A stretch of 44,945 bases of DNA from assembly GCA_963205185.1 (NCBI GenBank), contig CAUJHZ010000071.1, positions 1-44,945 of the forward strand, in the 5' to 3' direction. Every line of letters starts with the position of its first letter. Position 1 is the stretch's first letter. Of the stretch, positions 12,907 to 43,448 are shown one piece after another. The notes beneath the pieces are model-generated. The model was not told the DNA's origin. It worked only from the letters and a program-made list of their open reading frames with translations, and did not search any database. The DNA is from Planctomycetota bacterium. Lineage in GTDB: Bacteria; Planctomycetota; Phycisphaerae; Phycisphaerales; UBA5793. A program made the position numbers and the translations under genes.

Positions 12907-13758
12907 TCAGCTGCTCTTGCGGCTCTTGCGCGTCGTCTTCCTGCTGCTGAACGATTTCTCGATCTGCTCGACGGCGTCGAGGTTCTTGCAGCCGGACTCG
13001 CCTTGATCGACATCCACCTTGCCGATGCGGCTGGCGGTGTTGAAAGCGCGGTCGCGCAGATTCTCGTCACAGGTGCCGATGGCGATCAGGGCGAGGTTCA
13101 TTCCCTCGCGGGCCCGGTTCGCCGACGAGTGGATCTCGCGCTCGATCTGGTTGATCGCGGCATCGAGCAGGGCGGGGTAGATCGTGACGCCGTCCTTGAG
13201 CGCGGCAGAGATGATGCCAAAGCCGCAACGCCGCTCGAACTCGCGCTTCGAGCGCGTCCAGCGATCAATGCGGCTGCCCGCCTGCGGGCTCCGCGCCACC
13301 AAGGCGGAGAATGAATCGGCCAGCACGTAGTTGTCCACCTGCCGCACCCATTGGTCCAGTTCGCTGGCCGTGAGCGCCTGCGGGTCGGCGACGAGCGTCG
13401 CGAGCATGCGGGCATCGTGATTGCCCGTGGCCCACAGCTGGCGGGCGAGGTCGTGGTCGTTCTTGACCTTGCGCGCGATGGACTTGAGTTGAGCCGGACT
13501 CACGCCGAAGCACTCGCCCCTGATGCCATGCTTCGGGGCGGCCTTGCGGTTGGCGGCGGTGCCGGCTTTCTTCAGGGCGGCGATGGTCTTGTCGAACGCG
13601 GGCGATGTGGGAATGGCCGCGGAGGCGCCCGAGTGGAGCGAGCCGTGACCGTTGCGAGCGACGGGCGCTGGCCGCGTCTCCACGACGGGCGGCGCGGACG
13701 CAGCGACGGGGGCGCTCTTGCTGCGGGCTGATCGGGATGGGGTTTTCGTTTGCGCCAT
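12907..13758 (-). CDS. DNA alkylation repair protein, AlkD family
   Basis: The 283-residue product has a low-complexity Ala/Lys/Pro-rich N-terminal segment of about 50 residues and then the HEAT-like AlkD fold: GVSPAQLKSIARKV, LWATGNHDARMLATL and, near the end, GKVDVDQGESGC. AlkD proteins remove bulky or cationic alkyl bases such as 7-methylguanine without base flipping, although many members of this branch are uncharacterised and may only bind DNA. The basic N-terminus could add DNA affinity. I start at ATG 13758, 9 nt after GAGG; ATG 13764 is an equal alternative. The 232 bp upstream hold its promoter region and nothing else recognisable. Confidence 0.78.
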   Translation of the reverse strand: MAQTKTPSRSARSKSAPVAASAPPVVETRPAPVARNGHGSLHSGASAAIPTSPAFDKTIAALKKAGTAANRKAAPKHGIRGECFGVSPAQLKSIARKVKNDHDLARQLWATGNHDARMLATLVADPQALTASELDQWVRQVDNYVLADSFSALVARSPQAGSRIDRWTRSKREFERRCGFGIISAALKDGVTIYPALLDAAINQIEREIHSSANRAREGMNLALIAIGTCDENLRDRAFNTASRIGKVDVDQGESGCKNLDAVEQIEKSFSSRKTTRKSRKSS

Positions 13759-13990
13759 CTTCATGGACCTCTTCTCGGTCGACTGCTTGACTGACGCCAC
13801 GTCAGTGCGAAAAAGCGCGGAATTGACCACCCATCGGGCTTTCGGCGTCAGGAACCGAACCTGAGCGGCCCCTCACGAGCCCACCCGGACCGGTGAGCGA
13901 TCGGGCTGGCCCAAAAGCCGGCGTAAGTGTAGGACACGTCAGCCCCGCGGTAGAGAGCGGCCGGGCCGGTTCGACGCGAAAAAACGGCCG

Positions 13991-14512
13991 TCATGCGAAG
14001 ATCGAGCCCAGCCGCAGAGCCCGGCGAAGGTCCACGATCTGCCCGCAGTGAGTGCCGTTGTGGAAGACCATCCGCGAAACCAGCCCGGAAATGGGCGTTT
14101 CGGCCCGGCCCCAACGGGTGATTCCGTCCAGACGCGAGTCGTCGATCGTGCGGGCGGCGTGCGCGAGCCGCCGGCAGGCTGCATCGAAGATCGCCGTGCT
14201 CCGCGCCAGGCCGGGGTAGCGCTTCGGATCGTCGGCCGGCCGGGAGTCAAAGGAGACCGACTCGGTGCCAAAGCGATTCGCATCGCCGCGATCCGCCCCG
14301 TCGATGAAGTCGGCAGCAGGCCGCGCGCCGCCATCGAGGCGCTCCGCGGCGCGGTGCATCGTCAGGGCGCAGTGGCCCAGGCACCACGCCACGTGATTGG
14401 GCAGGCCGGGCGCCTGGGTCGTGCAATTTGAGTCATCGAAGCCGGCAAGATACCGCCGCAGCAATTCGCCGCTGTCGATCACCGCTTGGGCGAGCATCTC
14501 TCCGCGCGTCAT
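13991..14512 (-). CDS. DinB-family protein
   Basis: A 173-residue helical protein with DinB metal ligands: H47 in CLGHCALTMHR and HxxxH at 151/155 in VFHNGTHCGQI. It differs from the two other DinB-fold products in this window in sequence and in the spacing between ligands, so these are separate subfamilies and not recent duplicates. The reaction is unknown; thiol transfer or DNA-damage response are the usual suggestions. AGGAG precedes ATG 14512 by about 9 nt. It is transcribed away from the ferritin-like gene, with which it shares a 135-bp divergent region. Confidence 0.8.
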   Translation of the reverse strand: MTRGEMLAQAVIDSGELLRRYLAGFDDSNCTTQAPGLPNHVAWCLGHCALTMHRAAERLDGGARPAADFIDGADRGDANRFGTESVSFDSRPADDPKRYPGLARSTAIFDAACRRLAHAARTIDDSRLDGITRWGRAETPISGLVSRMVFHNGTHCGQIVDLRRALRLGSIFA

Positions 14513-14537
14513 GAGGTGCGTCTCCTGATCAATCCGG

Positions 14538-14561
14538 TCAATCGCAGCCGCTGCGAATTGA
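14538..14561. promoter_or_regulatory. Inverted repeat between divergent DinB and ferritin-like genes
   Basis: TCAATCGCAG (14538-14547) and CTGCGAATTGA (14551-14561) form a 10-bp stem with one bulged base and a 3-nt CCG loop. It lies about 25 bp from the DinB start and 87 bp from the ferritin-like start. A regulator site or a leader hairpin is possible. It does not resemble a Fur box. Confidence 0.3.
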
Positions 14562-14647
14562 GGCGGCTTCCCCGGTCCGGAAGGTGGAGCAGAACACTAC
14601 CATCAATAAACAAGTCCATCGACAGCCTCGAATTGAAAGGACCCGGC

Positions 14648-15124
14648 ATGGCCCCCAACAGCACCGACTCCAAAGAGAAGATCGTCCACCTGCTCCAGAA
14701 ATCATACAACGCCGAACTCGAAACCGTGATGAACTACCTCGCCAATTCCGTCAATCTCGACGGCATCCGGGCTGAGCACATCAAGGGCTCGCTCCAGGCG
14801 GACGTCACGGAGGAACTGGGCCACGCGCAGCAACTGGCGGCCCGCATCAAGGTCATCGGCGGCACGGTGCCCGGTTCATTCAAACTGCGCTGGACGCAGG
14901 AGGCCCTTCAACCGCCGCACGAGAGCACCGACGTGCTGGCGGTAATCAAGGGCGTCATTGCGGCCGAGGAAGATGCCATTCACGGCTACGAAGAGATCAT
15001 CAAAGCCTGCGACGGCGTGGACTACGTCACCCAGGACATGGCCATCACGATCCTCGCCGACGAGCAGAACCACCGCCGCGAGTTCATCGGCTATCTCAAG
15101 GAGATGGAGGCCGGCCGGGCGTGA
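14648..15124 (+). CDS. Ferritin-like di-iron protein
   Basis: The 158-residue product is a four-helix bundle with the di-iron pattern of ferritin-like proteins: a glutamate in NAELE (E23 or E25), E56 and H59 in EELGH, E107/E108 in AAEEDAI, and E139 and H142 in DEQNH. This fits a bacterioferritin- or Dps-like iron oxidase/storage protein; the short length and a DEQNH motif are close to the small 'ferritin-like domain' group. No haem methionine is assignable. It would limit free Fe2+ brought in by FeoAB. AAAGGA precedes ATG 14648. A GTG at 15121 overlaps its stop and begins a truncated gene. Confidence 0.85.
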   Translation: MAPNSTDSKEKIVHLLQKSYNAELETVMNYLANSVNLDGIRAEHIKGSLQADVTEELGHAQQLAARIKVIGGTVPGSFKLRWTQEALQPPHESTDVLAVIKGVIAAEEDAIHGYEEIIKACDGVDYVTQDMAITILADEQNHRREFIGYLKEMEAGRA

Positions 15125-15303
15125 GCGGCGAGCCGGGCTTGCTGTTCGTCTACGGCACGCTGCGCCACGGCGGACGCCGGGCGGCCCGGCGCGCAGCGAC
15201 CGAATTCAGCCAATCCGCTCCTGCCCGTTCATATGTGGACGCAGCACGGCTGGAATGGTCACGCTCCCATCTTCGTTCTGGTAGAGTTCGAGGATGGGAA
15301 TGA
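15121..15303 (+). pseudogene. Truncated gamma-glutamylcyclotransferase (AIG2-like) remnant
   Basis: A GTG overlapping the stop of the ferritin-like gene (GTGA) opens a frame whose beginning, GLLFVYGTLRHGGRRA, is the diagnostic N-terminus of GGCT/AIG2-like proteins. Only about 25 residues match. Beyond about 15205 the frame runs antisense through the 3' end of serS, which is itself complete, so the remaining 90 or so residues of the domain and its catalytic glutamate are gone. This looks like a deletion whose right end lies at the serS stop, or a misassembly. It is unlikely to be functional. Confidence 0.55.
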
Positions 15304-32613: not shown

Positions 32614-33705
32614 TCAGACGAGAATCTGAGCGGCCGGATTGCTCCATTGCCCGAGTTCCTGGCGGAACTTGGTGCCCTTGTCCACGATGAGCGTGCCGGT
32701 CGCATCGACTTCGACCTTGAAGCGCTCGAGCGGGCGCGGCGCCGGGCCCTCGAAGTTGATGCCGGTCTTGCGGAAACCCGAGCCGTGGCACGGGCATTTG
32801 AAGATCTGCGCCGCCGGCAGCCAGTTGGGAATGCAGCCCAGGTGCGTGCAGACGGTGTTGATCGCGACGACCTTCTTGATGCCTTCCTCTTCGAGCGTGA
32901 CGACCCAGATGTTCTGCGGCTTGTAGTCTTCGTATACGCCCAGTTCGGTGTAGGCCGTGAGCTTGCCGACGCGGACGCGCGTGGGCGGCAGAATCGGCGC
33001 TTTGGGAATCATGAACGACTGGAACCAGGCGAGCGACGTCGCGCCGACGAAGACGAGCGCGCCCCACGCCGCGGCAACGGTGACGCCAAATCCGCGCCGC
33101 GTCATCCCGGCGCCGGAACCGACCTTCTCAGCCCGCTCGCGGATCCGCTCGGCGACCGACTTGCCGGGCCGGGTGTAGCCGGTGCCGACCATGGTCGCGA
33201 ACTGCGCATCCGGCGGCGCGCCCAGCGGCAGCGCCTGTTGGATCGACTCCGGCTGCACCTTGGCCGTGCGCACAATCGCGCGCGGCCCGCCCGCCGAGCG
33301 GCTGCCCGATACGTGCGCCGCCTCAAGCAGCTGAACCCACTTCGGATCCGGCGGCGCGTAACTGACCGCGGCAGCGGCTCCCCCGCCGCCCCCGCTTGCC
33401 TTGCCGCCTGCCTCGCCGCCCGCGGGAGCCGACGCGGCTTCCTTCTGCGCGGCCCACTCGGCCGGCTCGGGGCCCTCGACGTCGATCATCTCATACTTGA
33501 TCACATCGACCGGACAGCCTTCGGCGGCCGTGATGATCGAAGGCGTGAGGGGGCGCGTGAACTCCGCTTTGAGCGCGGGCGGGCGGATGATGCAGGTCTC
33601 TTCCTGCACATCGAAGACTTCCGGACAATCCGTCTCGCAGGCATCGCAGACGATGCAGCCGGGTGCGATCCAGACTTTCACGATTTCCTTGTGCGTTTCC
33701 GCCAT
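32614..33705 (-). CDS. Ferredoxin-Rieske fusion protein
   Basis: The 363-residue chain has two redox parts. Residues 8-75 are a 4Fe-4S ferredoxin domain (C17, C20, C23 and C27 in CIVCDACETDCP, then C64-P). A Gly/Ala-rich linker (90-115) and a spacer lead to TRRGF and one membrane helix (about 207-228), then a Rieske domain with C286-T-H288 and C291, C304-P-C306-H307. A Rieske domain of this kind normally serves a cytochrome bc complex; no cytochrome b gene is in the window. With N-in topology the ferredoxin would be cytoplasmic and the Rieske head periplasmic. TATGAT at 33776-33781 (minus strand) is a possible -10, and a 7-bp hairpin lies at 33740-33767. Confidence 0.88.
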   Translation of the reverse strand: MAETHKEIVKVWIAPGCIVCDACETDCPEVFDVQEETCIIRPPALKAEFTRPLTPSIITAAEGCPVDVIKYEMIDVEGPEPAEWAAQKEAASAPAGGEAGGKASGGGGGAAAAVSYAPPDPKWVQLLEAAHVSGSRSAGGPRAIVRTAKVQPESIQQALPLGAPPDAQFATMVGTGYTRPGKSVAERIRERAEKVGSGAGMTRRGFGVTVAAAWGALVFVGATSLAWFQSFMIPKAPILPPTRVRVGKLTAYTELGVYEDYKPQNIWVVTLEEEGIKKVVAINTVCTHLGCIPNWLPAAQIFKCPCHGSGFRKTGINFEGPAPRPLERFKVEVDATGTLIVDKGTKFRQELGQWSNPAAQILV

Positions 33706-33826: not shown

Positions 33827-34990
33827 TCAACCGCCCGTTTCGCCGCTCCCTGCCGGCTGCTGCGCCTCGCGGGCGTCCAGGGCCGCTTTCGCCGCGGCAC
33901 GAACGGCGCTGTCCGGATCGTCCTTGGCCAGCTTCTCGATGAGCGCCCAGACCGCCGGCGACTCGACCCGCACGGCGAAGCCCTCCAGGCGTGGATCGAA
34001 GCCCACCACCACATTGATTGTGCTGGTCATGATCTTTCGCTGCGACGCGGCGTCGATCAGCCGCCCCTCGGGCACGCGGGAGTCGTAGGGCTGCTGGCTC
34101 AGCCATTGGCGGTCCAGCAGGGACATGACCACCGGGATACCCCGCGCATCACCCATCACCGCCAGTGCCGTCCCGGCATTCCAGGCGATATCCCGGGAGG
34201 CGCCCGACGCGGCTCCAAGTTCCTTCGCCAGCGCTTCGCGCACGGTCACGTCCGCCGGATCGGCCGCTACCGCAAGCACCGACATGGTGATGGGCACGAG
34301 CGAATCGATCGGCCGGTCTTCGCGCGGGTTCTCCGTCGGCCGCGGCGCACTGCGCAGAACTTTGAGCAGCTCGGGAGTCAGAGGCCGCAGCGCGGTCATG
34401 TCGCCGCGCCAGCCGTGGAGACCGGAGACGGCCGCGAACCAATCGTTGGGATCATCCGACTGGAGGAACTCGCGGAAGACTTCGATCGTGGATGGATCGC
34501 CCAGCAGTCCGAGCGTGCCCATGACCGCGCGCGAAAGTTCCTCGTGCCCGCCGCGGTTGAGCCGGGCGATCTTGGGCAGTTCGCTGGCGAGCCGGTGCTG
34601 GTCTTCCTGCGAGAGCCCCGGGCCGGCGGGGTCGGAGGCCTCTTCAATGATGCTCAGCAGACTCAGCGCGGTGCGGGCCCGCTCCTGGTCAGCCGGGGCG
34701 CCGCCGCCGGTCTTGCTCAGCGTCTCGAGGACGTTGCCCAGGCTCTGGGCCTTGCCGCCAAGCGACACCACCACGAGCCAGACGGCCAGCACGCCGCCGA
34801 CGATGAGCGCGGGGATGAGCACGAGTTGCAGCATCTGCCGGCCGAAGCCGATCGACGGCGCACCGACGGCCGCGCTCTGCCGGGCCGTCGCCTGCTCGTA
34901 TAGCGCGTACGCCTCGCGATCCTCCCGGCCGATGACCTCGACGGGATCGGGTTCGGCCGCGTCGTCAGTACGAGGAAGTTCAGCTGACAT
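33827..34990 (-). CDS. Membrane-anchored HEAT-like repeat protein
   Basis: The 387-residue product has a cytoplasmic N-terminus, one membrane helix (about 54-77, LVLIPALIVGGVLAVWLVVV) and a long helical region with weak HEAT-type repeats (MGTLGLLGDPSTIEVFREFL, ALAVMGDARGIPVVMSLL, DDPDSAVRAAAKAAL). Such repeats are scaffolds for protein binding. It lies 121 bp upstream of the ferredoxin-Rieske gene on the same strand, so it may help assemble or anchor that protein. ATG 34990 is chosen as the first after low-complexity sequence; no good ribosome site separates it from ATG 35002. Confidence 0.75.
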   Translation of the reverse strand: MSAELPRTDDAAEPDPVEVIGREDREAYALYEQATARQSAAVGAPSIGFGRQMLQLVLIPALIVGGVLAVWLVVVSLGGKAQSLGNVLETLSKTGGGAPADQERARTALSLLSIIEEASDPAGPGLSQEDQHRLASELPKIARLNRGGHEELSRAVMGTLGLLGDPSTIEVFREFLQSDDPNDWFAAVSGLHGWRGDMTALRPLTPELLKVLRSAPRPTENPREDRPIDSLVPITMSVLAVAADPADVTVREALAKELGAASGASRDIAWNAGTALAVMGDARGIPVVMSLLDRQWLSQQPYDSRVPEGRLIDAASQRKIMTSTINVVVGFDPRLEGFAVRVESPAVWALIEKLAKDDPDSAVRAAAKAALDAREAQQPAGSGETGG

Positions 34991-35133
34991 GGCACCACCA
35001 TCCATCGCGCCGCCAAGGCAATCGTGAAAAAAAGCACAGAGCCGGCGCCGAAAAAACGGGATGTCCAAGCCGGCATCCCGCTGTCGCGCCAATCCTAGAC
35101 GCCGGCGACGGAACCTGCCACGCCGCGTCGGCC

Positions 35134-40299: not shown

Positions 40300-40439
40300 T
40301 ACCGAATTGACGGGGTGAGCGGGCTGCAGGCAGATTGAGGACGTCGAGCCTCGCCCGGCTTTCCCGCTGTTTTCTGGACTTTTTCTGCGCCACGCACACA
40401 GCCGATCACGCACACGCGAGAATAAGGACGCTGCATCTC

Positions 40440-42341
<1,902 letters not shown>

Positions 42342-42422
42342 AGGCTGAACGGCACAGCGACGCGGACCGTACCAAACAAGCGACCGGCCAATGGCCGACA
42401 GACCGACTGAATCGAGACCCTC

Positions 42423-43448
42423 ATGACGCAGATCGAACTTCCCAAGTACACCGCCAAAGACTTCGCCACCGACCAGGAAGTGCGCTGGTGCCCGGGCTGC
42501 GGCGACTACGCCATCCTCGCCGCGGTGCGCAAGGTGCTGCCTGACCTGAACCATCGCAAGGAAAATTACGTCTTCGTCTCGGGCATCGGCTGCTCGAGCC
42601 GCTTCCCGTATTACATGGGCACCTACGGCATCCACGGCATCCACGGCCGCGCGCCCGCCGTGGCCACGGGTGTCAAGGCCGCCAATCCTGAACTCGACGT
42701 CTGGCTCGTCACCGGCGACGGCGACGGCCTGTCCATCGGCGGCAACCACCTCATGCACATGCTCCGCCGCAATGTGAACATCAAGGTGCTGCTGTTCAAC
42801 AACCGCATCTACGGCCTGACCAAGGGCCAGTATTCACCCACCAGCCTCGAAGGCCATCGCACCAAGTCCACGCCGATGGGTTCGATCGACCATCCGATCC
42901 ATCCCATCAGTTTCGCGCTCGGCGTCGAGGCGACGTTCGTGGCCCGCTGCACCGACGTGAACAAGGGCGGGCTCAATATTCTTGGCGACGTGCTCAAGGC
43001 CGCCGCCAATCACCGCGGCAGCGCCTTCGTCGAAATCTACCAGGATTGCAACGTCTTCAACCACCAGGCGTTCTTCTACGCCACCGAAAAAGACACCGCC
43101 CGCGAGACCACCGTGCTGCTCGAGCACGGCAAGCCGCTCGTGTTCGGCGCCAACCGCGACAAGGGTGTCCGCCTCAACTCCACGCGCCTCGAAGTGGTCA
43201 GCCTCGACAAGGTGAAGGAAGATGACCTGCTCTTCCACGACGAGACGGACCCGGCGCTGGCCTTCCTGCTCAGCCGCATGAGCCATACCCAGGGCATGCC
43301 CGAGCCGGTGGGCGTCTTCCACCGCATCCACAAGCCCTGCTACGAAGACATGCTCACGGCGCAGATGAACAAGGCGATTGAACAGCGCGGCGAAGGCAAT
43401 CTCGAAAAGCTCATCCACTCCGGCTCAACGTGGACGGTAGGCGAGTAA
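42423..43448 (+). CDS. korB: 2-oxoacid:ferredoxin oxidoreductase subunit beta
   Basis: The 341-residue product has RWCPGCGDYAIL (C23, C26), SGIGCSSRFPYYM and a thiamine-diphosphate site GDGDGLSIGGNH (98-109, metal ligands in GDGD and N108). It holds TPP and a 4Fe-4S cluster and forms the catalytic pair with KorA. IYGLTKGQYSPTS is the typical KorB loop. The gene ends the operon at the hairpin at 43489. Confidence 0.95.
   Translation: MTQIELPKYTAKDFATDQEVRWCPGCGDYAILAAVRKVLPDLNHRKENYVFVSGIGCSSRFPYYMGTYGIHGIHGRAPAVATGVKAANPELDVWLVTGDGDGLSIGGNHLMHMLRRNVNIKVLLFNNRIYGLTKGQYSPTSLEGHRTKSTPMGSIDHPIHPISFALGVEATFVARCTDVNKGGLNILGDVLKAAANHRGSAFVEIYQDCNVFNHQAFFYATEKDTARETTVLLEHGKPLVFGANRDKGVRLNSTRLEVVSLDKVKEDDLLFHDETDPALAFLLSRMSHTQGMPEPVGVFHRIHKPCYEDMLTAQMNKAIEQRGEGNLEKLIHSGSTWTVGE

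Follow-up and report, generated by a model that had tools for sequence, protein, structure and literature searches.

The gene analysed here lies on the minus strand of a Planctomycetota contig, within the window, by which the whole analysed stretch of 44,945 nucleotides is meant. It is an intact frame of 363 amino acids with an ATG start, and its product has a ferredoxin domain and a Rieske domain on the two sides of a single hydrophobic segment. The features of the gene and of its surroundings are the following.

32614..33705, minus strand: ferredoxin-Rieske subunit gene, 363 aa (ORF, Pfam, 14 full-length orthologues)
33475..33705, minus strand: N-terminal predicted [4Fe-4S] ferredoxin domain, residues 1-77, with C17, C20, C23 and C64, and C38 (Pfam, 1iqz alignment, AlphaFold2)
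33100..33474, minus strand: linker, residues 78-202 (~125 residues), partly Ala/Gly-rich (alignment)
33088..33102, minus strand: twin-arginine motif TRRGF, residues 202-206 (orthologue alignment)
33013..33093, minus strand: single predicted membrane helix, residues 205-231 (hydropathy and AlphaFold2)
32617..32979, minus strand: predicted Rieske [2Fe-2S] domain, residues 243-363 (Pfam, alignment, structure search)
33827..35092, minus strand: HEAT-repeat protein predicted to span the membrane once, start codon uncertain (HEAT_2, 4e-9)
40335-43448, plus strand: 2-oxoacid:ferredoxin oxidoreductase of the KorA/KorB type, which probably supplies reduced ferredoxin

Domain structure and conservation of the ferredoxin-Rieske protein

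The Rieske domain is matched by Pfam above the cut-off (residues 276-329, 2.2e-7), and its motifs CTHLGC (286-291) and CPCHGS (304-309) are invariant in 15 orthologues. The Fer4_13 match of the window protein (residues 17-70, 1.6e-4) scores 22.7 bits, slightly below the cut-off of 24.5; in five orthologues the same match reaches 27-31 bits, in every case above it. C17, C20, C23 and C64, likewise invariant in the 15 orthologues, align with the CxxCxxC...CP ligand pattern of 1iqz, the [4Fe-4S] ferredoxin of Bacillus thermoproteolyticus. The domain is like the single-cluster ferredoxins of this type (Fer4_13) in ligand pattern and length, and unlike them in being fused to a membrane Rieske subunit and in having an extra invariant cysteine, C38. 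This fifth cysteine is part of a TCxIRP motif and is also kept in the ferredoxins of the Bacteriovoracia; it lies outside the usual four ferredoxin ligands. C27 is variable in the same 15 sequences, being sometimes Ser.

The AlphaFold2 model used was built from 73 sequences, and one from 15 close sequences (pLDDT 52) was set aside. It gives the ferredoxin a pLDDT of 86-93 and has one long helix at residues 203-232 (about 90-97); the Rieske part is also confident and the middle of the linker is disordered. A structure search with the whole model returned only Rieske chains among the matches listed, the best being 9rk3 (Kustd1480, E 1.3e-32), and the ferredoxin was assigned from sequence. An earlier note on this DNA had described a ferredoxin and a Rieske domain on one single-helix chain, and this description is borne out by Pfam, the 1iqz alignment, hydropathy and the AlphaFold2 model.

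The only hydrophobic segment of the chain, at about residues 205-228 by hydropathy and assigned to a helix of about 205-231, has an Arg-rich flank on its N-terminal side. A TRRxF motif is conserved directly before it, with R204 invariant and R203 present in over 90% of the orthologue alignment. Since this motif is conserved, the flank is Arg-rich and the p-side is where cytochrome b complexes use their Rieske heads, the most likely topology has the ferredoxin in the cytoplasm and the Rieske domain on the p-side. The chain would then carry clusters on both faces of the membrane, as had been supposed. A Tat-type motif, by which that supposition was to be checked, is present as the TRRGF directly before the helix; export itself is predicted. 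In the linker, the orthologue alignment retains a GAPPDA...MVG.G...RP...I motif at about residues 162-188.

Of 151 genomes in the order, 15, among them the window's own, contain full-length orthologues at 52-96% identity, and eight more are found in other named Planctomycetota records (L059, L062-L067 and L088). Most of the genomes compared were assembled from metagenomes. The homologues of the same domain order that the earlier note proposed to look for are therefore at hand, 14 within the order and 8 elsewhere in the phylum. Full-length conservation at these identities rules out a chance or frameshift fusion. One orthologue with a frame change and another in two frames could be taken to mean that two genes were joined by a frameshift or misassembly, but independent assemblies contain 23 or more full-length copies in an unbroken frame and the probability of such an artefact is negligible. 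Mean identity to the window protein outside the genus is 83% for the ferredoxin, 56% for the Rieske head and 29% for linker residues 86-120. No other part of the chain is as constrained as the ferredoxin.

The two aberrant loci are of different kinds. In G005, which holds the 16th copy in the order (L048:9150-10420), the frame changes within the linker, probably through a sequencing error. At L068:5001-6240 the ferredoxin and the Rieske domain are in two reading frames, either because the gene is truly split or because the assembly is faulty.

Cytochrome b6 and subunit IV as probable partner subunits

Cytochrome b6 is the next gene in 18 of the 19 orthologues outside the window's genus that have readable downstream sequence, the sole exception being the two-frame locus L068. 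After the cytochrome b6 gene (about 260 aa) of these relatives comes, wherever the contig reaches, that of subunit IV, in a long form of about 380 aa. A pair of this type is encoded on another contig, C57, of the window's genome.

G000:C57, about 13303-15299: four-helix cytochrome b6 (261 aa; L040:7304-8089) and subunit IV (381 aa; L040:8155-9300)

This is the only cytochrome b6/subunit IV pair of matching type in the genome. The pair is non-adjacent to the ferredoxin-Rieske gene only in the window's genus, where it is absent from the loci read in four sister genomes, one of whose contigs ends just past the gene. The earlier observation that genes for cytochromes b and c are lacking nearby is correct for the window, but cytochrome b partners, sought elsewhere in the genome as had been advised, are found on C57 and adjoin the gene in relatives. 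The accompanying view that the protein is unlike the Rieske proteins of bc complexes does not hold. From the gene order in relatives, it belongs as Rieske subunit to a Rieske/cytochrome b complex of b6f-like type, a relative of complex III. We infer that in this genus the ferredoxin-Rieske protein assembles with this cytochrome b6 and subunit IV, the subunits being encoded on different contigs. Homologues in a bc operon, together with a ferredoxin part deprived of cluster binding, had been named as observations that would speak against an unusual protein; an operon was found, and the four cluster ligands are all retained.

Contig C61 of the same genome carries a conventional cluster of Rieske, cytochrome b and multiheme c genes, and the ferredoxin-Rieske protein therefore belongs to a second complex. 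A further Rieske gene of this genome (L043:5871-10517, on G000:C34) is in an apparent operon with genes for molybdopterin oxidoreductase-like, 4Fe-4S and membrane proteins.

The conserved cluster consists of the genes for the HEAT-repeat protein, the ferredoxin-Rieske protein, cytochrome b6 and subunit IV, in this order, and nothing else. Of 15 loci inspected, 14 have a gene of the HEAT-protein family directly upstream of the ferredoxin-Rieske gene. In wider relatives HEAT proteins of weaker similarity are also found upstream of the Rieske gene. This membrane protein is possibly an assembly or cofactor-insertion factor. No c-type cytochrome gene is conserved in the clusters examined; all the loci taken together have only two single-CXXCH frames, neither of them conserved beside these genes.

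In the alignment with 1q90, C60 of the partner cytochrome b6 falls on the heme c residue Cys35, the covalent ligand of heme ci/cN, and the four b-heme ligands H110, H124, H232 and H247 are kept in 118-121 of 121 sequences. In subunit IV, the alignment register of which was confirmed against 1q90_D, E145 is at the position of Phe40, which caps heme ci/cN in b6f, and Glu is found here in 79 of 79 sequences. His42 of cytochrome b6 corresponds to His62 of Kustd1481 and is His in all 79 sequences reaching it, and R252 and K253 match Arg266 and Lys267 of the same protein. A Glu-ligated heme cN and a new dimer-interface heme b have been modelled in the anammox structures, the latter with Kustd1481 His62 as ligand and Arg266 and Lys267 nearby (PMC12954380). 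Given the matches at C60, E145, His42, R252 and K253, all residues of the proposed n-side electron exit path are present, with heme cN and the interface heme b as putative cofactors of this complex. The Qo motif is APWY rather than PEWY in 74 of 78 subunit IV sequences, including that of the window's genome (L040:8155-9300), and the canonical Glu is absent.

Known complexes and other carriers at the inner side

Split-cytochrome-b Rieske complexes with inner-side redox modules as separate subunits are already known from anammox bacteria. The Kuenenia complexes Kustd1480-1485 and Kuste4569-4574 combine a split cytochrome b with n-side NAD(P) oxidoreductases containing FeS clusters (PMC12954380). 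The closest characterised complex, on sequence comparison, is Kustd1480-1485 of Kuenenia stuttgartiensis. The Rieske domain of the window protein is nearest to 9rk3 (Kustd1480) among the solved chains listed, and the two have the CPCHGSGF cluster loop in common. Also common to both are the split b6-like cytochrome b with a long subunit IV, the predicted n-side FeS redox module, the Glu at the heme cN cap, and the interface-heme His and Arg/Lys. The module differs: in Kuenenia it is an NAD(P) oxidoreductase, a subunit of its own that contains FAD and several clusters, whereas here the Rieske N-terminus itself would bear a lone [4Fe-4S] ferredoxin. No multiheme cytochrome c was found beside the genes here, unlike in Kuenenia, and an n-side NAD(P) oxidoreductase is absent from the conserved cluster of the window protein's orthologues.

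The idea that a ferredoxin had been trimmed from the Kuenenia Rieske protein for crystallisation was rejected, as the Kuenenia frame is 169 aa without a ferredoxin. In the Kuenenia genome G235 (L171:10026-13792), the Rieske protein of which matches Kustd1480, the subunit IV gene is in two frames about 2 kb apart.

The cytochrome b6f complex of cyanobacteria and chloroplasts is similar in its four-helix cytochrome b6 with the Cys35 equivalent, its separate subunit IV and its Tat-type Rieske anchor. The complex described here is unlike it in lacking a cytochrome f gene, in having APWY for PEWY and Glu for Phe40, and in its tethered ferredoxin. In b6f, a route from ferredoxin to heme cn has only been proposed, via bound FNR (PMC9342900).

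A phylum-wide sample contains a second carrier at the same end of a Rieske protein, in four genomes.

L165:9420-10676, minus strand: flavodoxin-Rieske fusion, planctomycete family f30 (also L214, L215 and L216)

These proteins have Flavodoxin_1 (1.8e-19) and Rieske matches in one frame of 419 aa, are 82-83% identical over their full length, and have the cytochrome b6 and subunit IV genes immediately downstream. As in the window protein, a low-potential carrier is placed at the N-terminus of a Rieske subunit encoded ahead of these two genes. In f30, however, the carrier is a flavodoxin, the cytochrome b6 is on a distant branch and the heme cN Cys is missing. In the cytochrome b6 tree all complexes with a fused ferredoxin group together (100/100), as do the flavodoxin-fused complexes of the four genomes (100/100); the two clades are distant from each other, with unfused complexes in between. 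Many separate origins of the ferredoxin fusion were considered and rejected, as one origin suffices on this tree. In the flavodoxin clade Gly occupies the position of the heme cN Cys, and heme cN is therefore not essential to every such module. Ferredoxin and flavodoxin are interchangeable in many organisms. The occurrence of two separate carrier fusions at the same place is thus an argument for a function in carrying electrons.

Rieske proteins of other Planctomycetota (L160, L162, L166, L167, L168 and L159) have long N-terminal tails of a different nature, with short, helical 'ADILAAARA'-like repeats or repeated zinc-ribbon-like CxxC pairs. A fusion of ferredoxin or flavodoxin to a Rieske protein is not described in the literature searched, which covers few subscription journals, and no claim of priority is therefore made.

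In the Bacteriovoracia the homologous Rieske protein is without a ferredoxin, and a ferredoxin of the same type forms the C-terminus of a separate membrane-anchored protein of about 284 aa.

L092:4356-5207, plus strand: membrane-anchored ferredoxin protein of the Bacteriovoracia (also L089-L091 and L093)

No ferredoxin gene is found within 5 kb of the Rieske gene in the Bacteriovoracaceae, the protein being encoded elsewhere in the genome. Among 129 genomes of the class, 93 have both this protein and cytochrome b6, 4 have cytochrome b6 only, 6 the ferredoxin protein only and 26 neither (Fisher p 1.6e-17, for related genomes with kinship ignored). The tally is a manual one of the matches listed, with weak partial ferredoxin matches and diverged long cytochrome b frames set aside.

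Proposed function and alternative readings

It is proposed that the ferredoxin-Rieske protein works in a b6f-like, menaquinol-oxidising Rieske/cytochrome b complex with the partners encoded on C57. The Rieske head would be carried across the membrane by Tat and act at the p-side Qp site, while the [4Fe-4S] ferredoxin would stay in the cytoplasm on its flexible tether of ~125 residues. There it could serve as a port through which single electrons pass between the ferredoxin-dependent enzymes of the cytoplasm and heme cN, the proposed interface heme b or a quinone at Qn. A port of this kind on the inner side of the complex, taken to cover either direction of flow, is given a probability of roughly 0.6. 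The arrangement suggests direct electron exchange between a relative of complex III and the ferredoxin pool of the cell. Such exchange between b6f or bc complexes and ferredoxin, through the inner-side heme cn, has been proposed for cyclic photosynthetic electron flow, where it is still debated (PMC9342900).

As to direction, entry is slightly favoured over exit. Net flow would most likely run from reduced ferredoxin to the menaquinone pool, and then through the Q-cycle and terminal oxidases. Entry would be downhill and would require nothing more than a working Qn site; the genome has KorAB, NuoF and four COX1-like oxidases.

The opposite course is the main alternative, though a tentative and somewhat unlikely one. 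Menaquinol oxidation would be bifurcated at Qp: one electron would pass to the high-potential Rieske cluster, while the b hemes would hand the second on to the tethered ferredoxin, so that reduced ferredoxin is made. This scheme has been put forward for Kuenenia, with an NAD(P) acceptor, from Rieske potentials of +303 and +335 mV, the latter that of Kustd1480, the closest Rieske protein with a measured potential; the authors favour low-potential reduction on the n-side, the opposite of entry, and by their argument the p-side heme b could be near -475 mV (PMC12954380). The Rieske domain of the window protein is most similar to that of Kustd1480, with the same cluster loop. Exit would nevertheless have to compete with quinone reduction at Qn, and the oxidative pathways of this organism (KorAB) already yield reduced ferredoxin in a genome that also encodes NuoF and the four COX1-like oxidases. 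For anammox bacteria, reduction of a low-potential n-side acceptor by bifurcation is itself no more than a proposal (PMC12954380).

The chances are about even that the complex truly works as a ferredoxin:menaquinone oxidoreductase, or in the reverse sense as a bifurcating ferredoxin reductase driven by quinol, acting through a carrier tethered to the Rieske protein, within one complex family in which ferredoxin, flavodoxin and NAD(P)-reductase modules are interchangeable. With the covalent ferredoxin-Rieske and the independent flavodoxin-Rieske, each encoded by a single gene, both routes are open to testing by mutation of the ligands. The port may also answer the question of how planctomycetes with ferredoxin-linked 2-oxoacid oxidoreductases couple these to respiration.

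If the complex is accepted, a port is strongly preferred to a non-redox role of the ferredoxin domain. That the domain is a redox sensor, or a docking or assembly element, with no net current to the hemes, is improbable. Such a role would be in keeping with the tails without an obvious redox domain on Rieske proteins of other Planctomycetota and with the HEAT-repeat membrane protein of the conserved cluster. The invariance of the cluster ligands, a conservation exceeding that of the Rieske domain and the independent flavodoxin fusion at the same place all speak for the port.

A stand-alone membrane redox protein with two clusters, outside any cytochrome b complex and driven by KorAB, is very improbable. 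The window is without a cytochrome b gene and KorAB is encoded 6.6 kb away, but cytochrome b6 adjoins the gene in nearly all relatives, the matching pair is in the same genome and KorA is nearby only in the genus. KorAB, which had been proposed as the electron source, is real and may well supply reduced ferredoxin. As a linked partner it was rejected, since it is near the gene in the window's genus only, and its proximity looks incidental.
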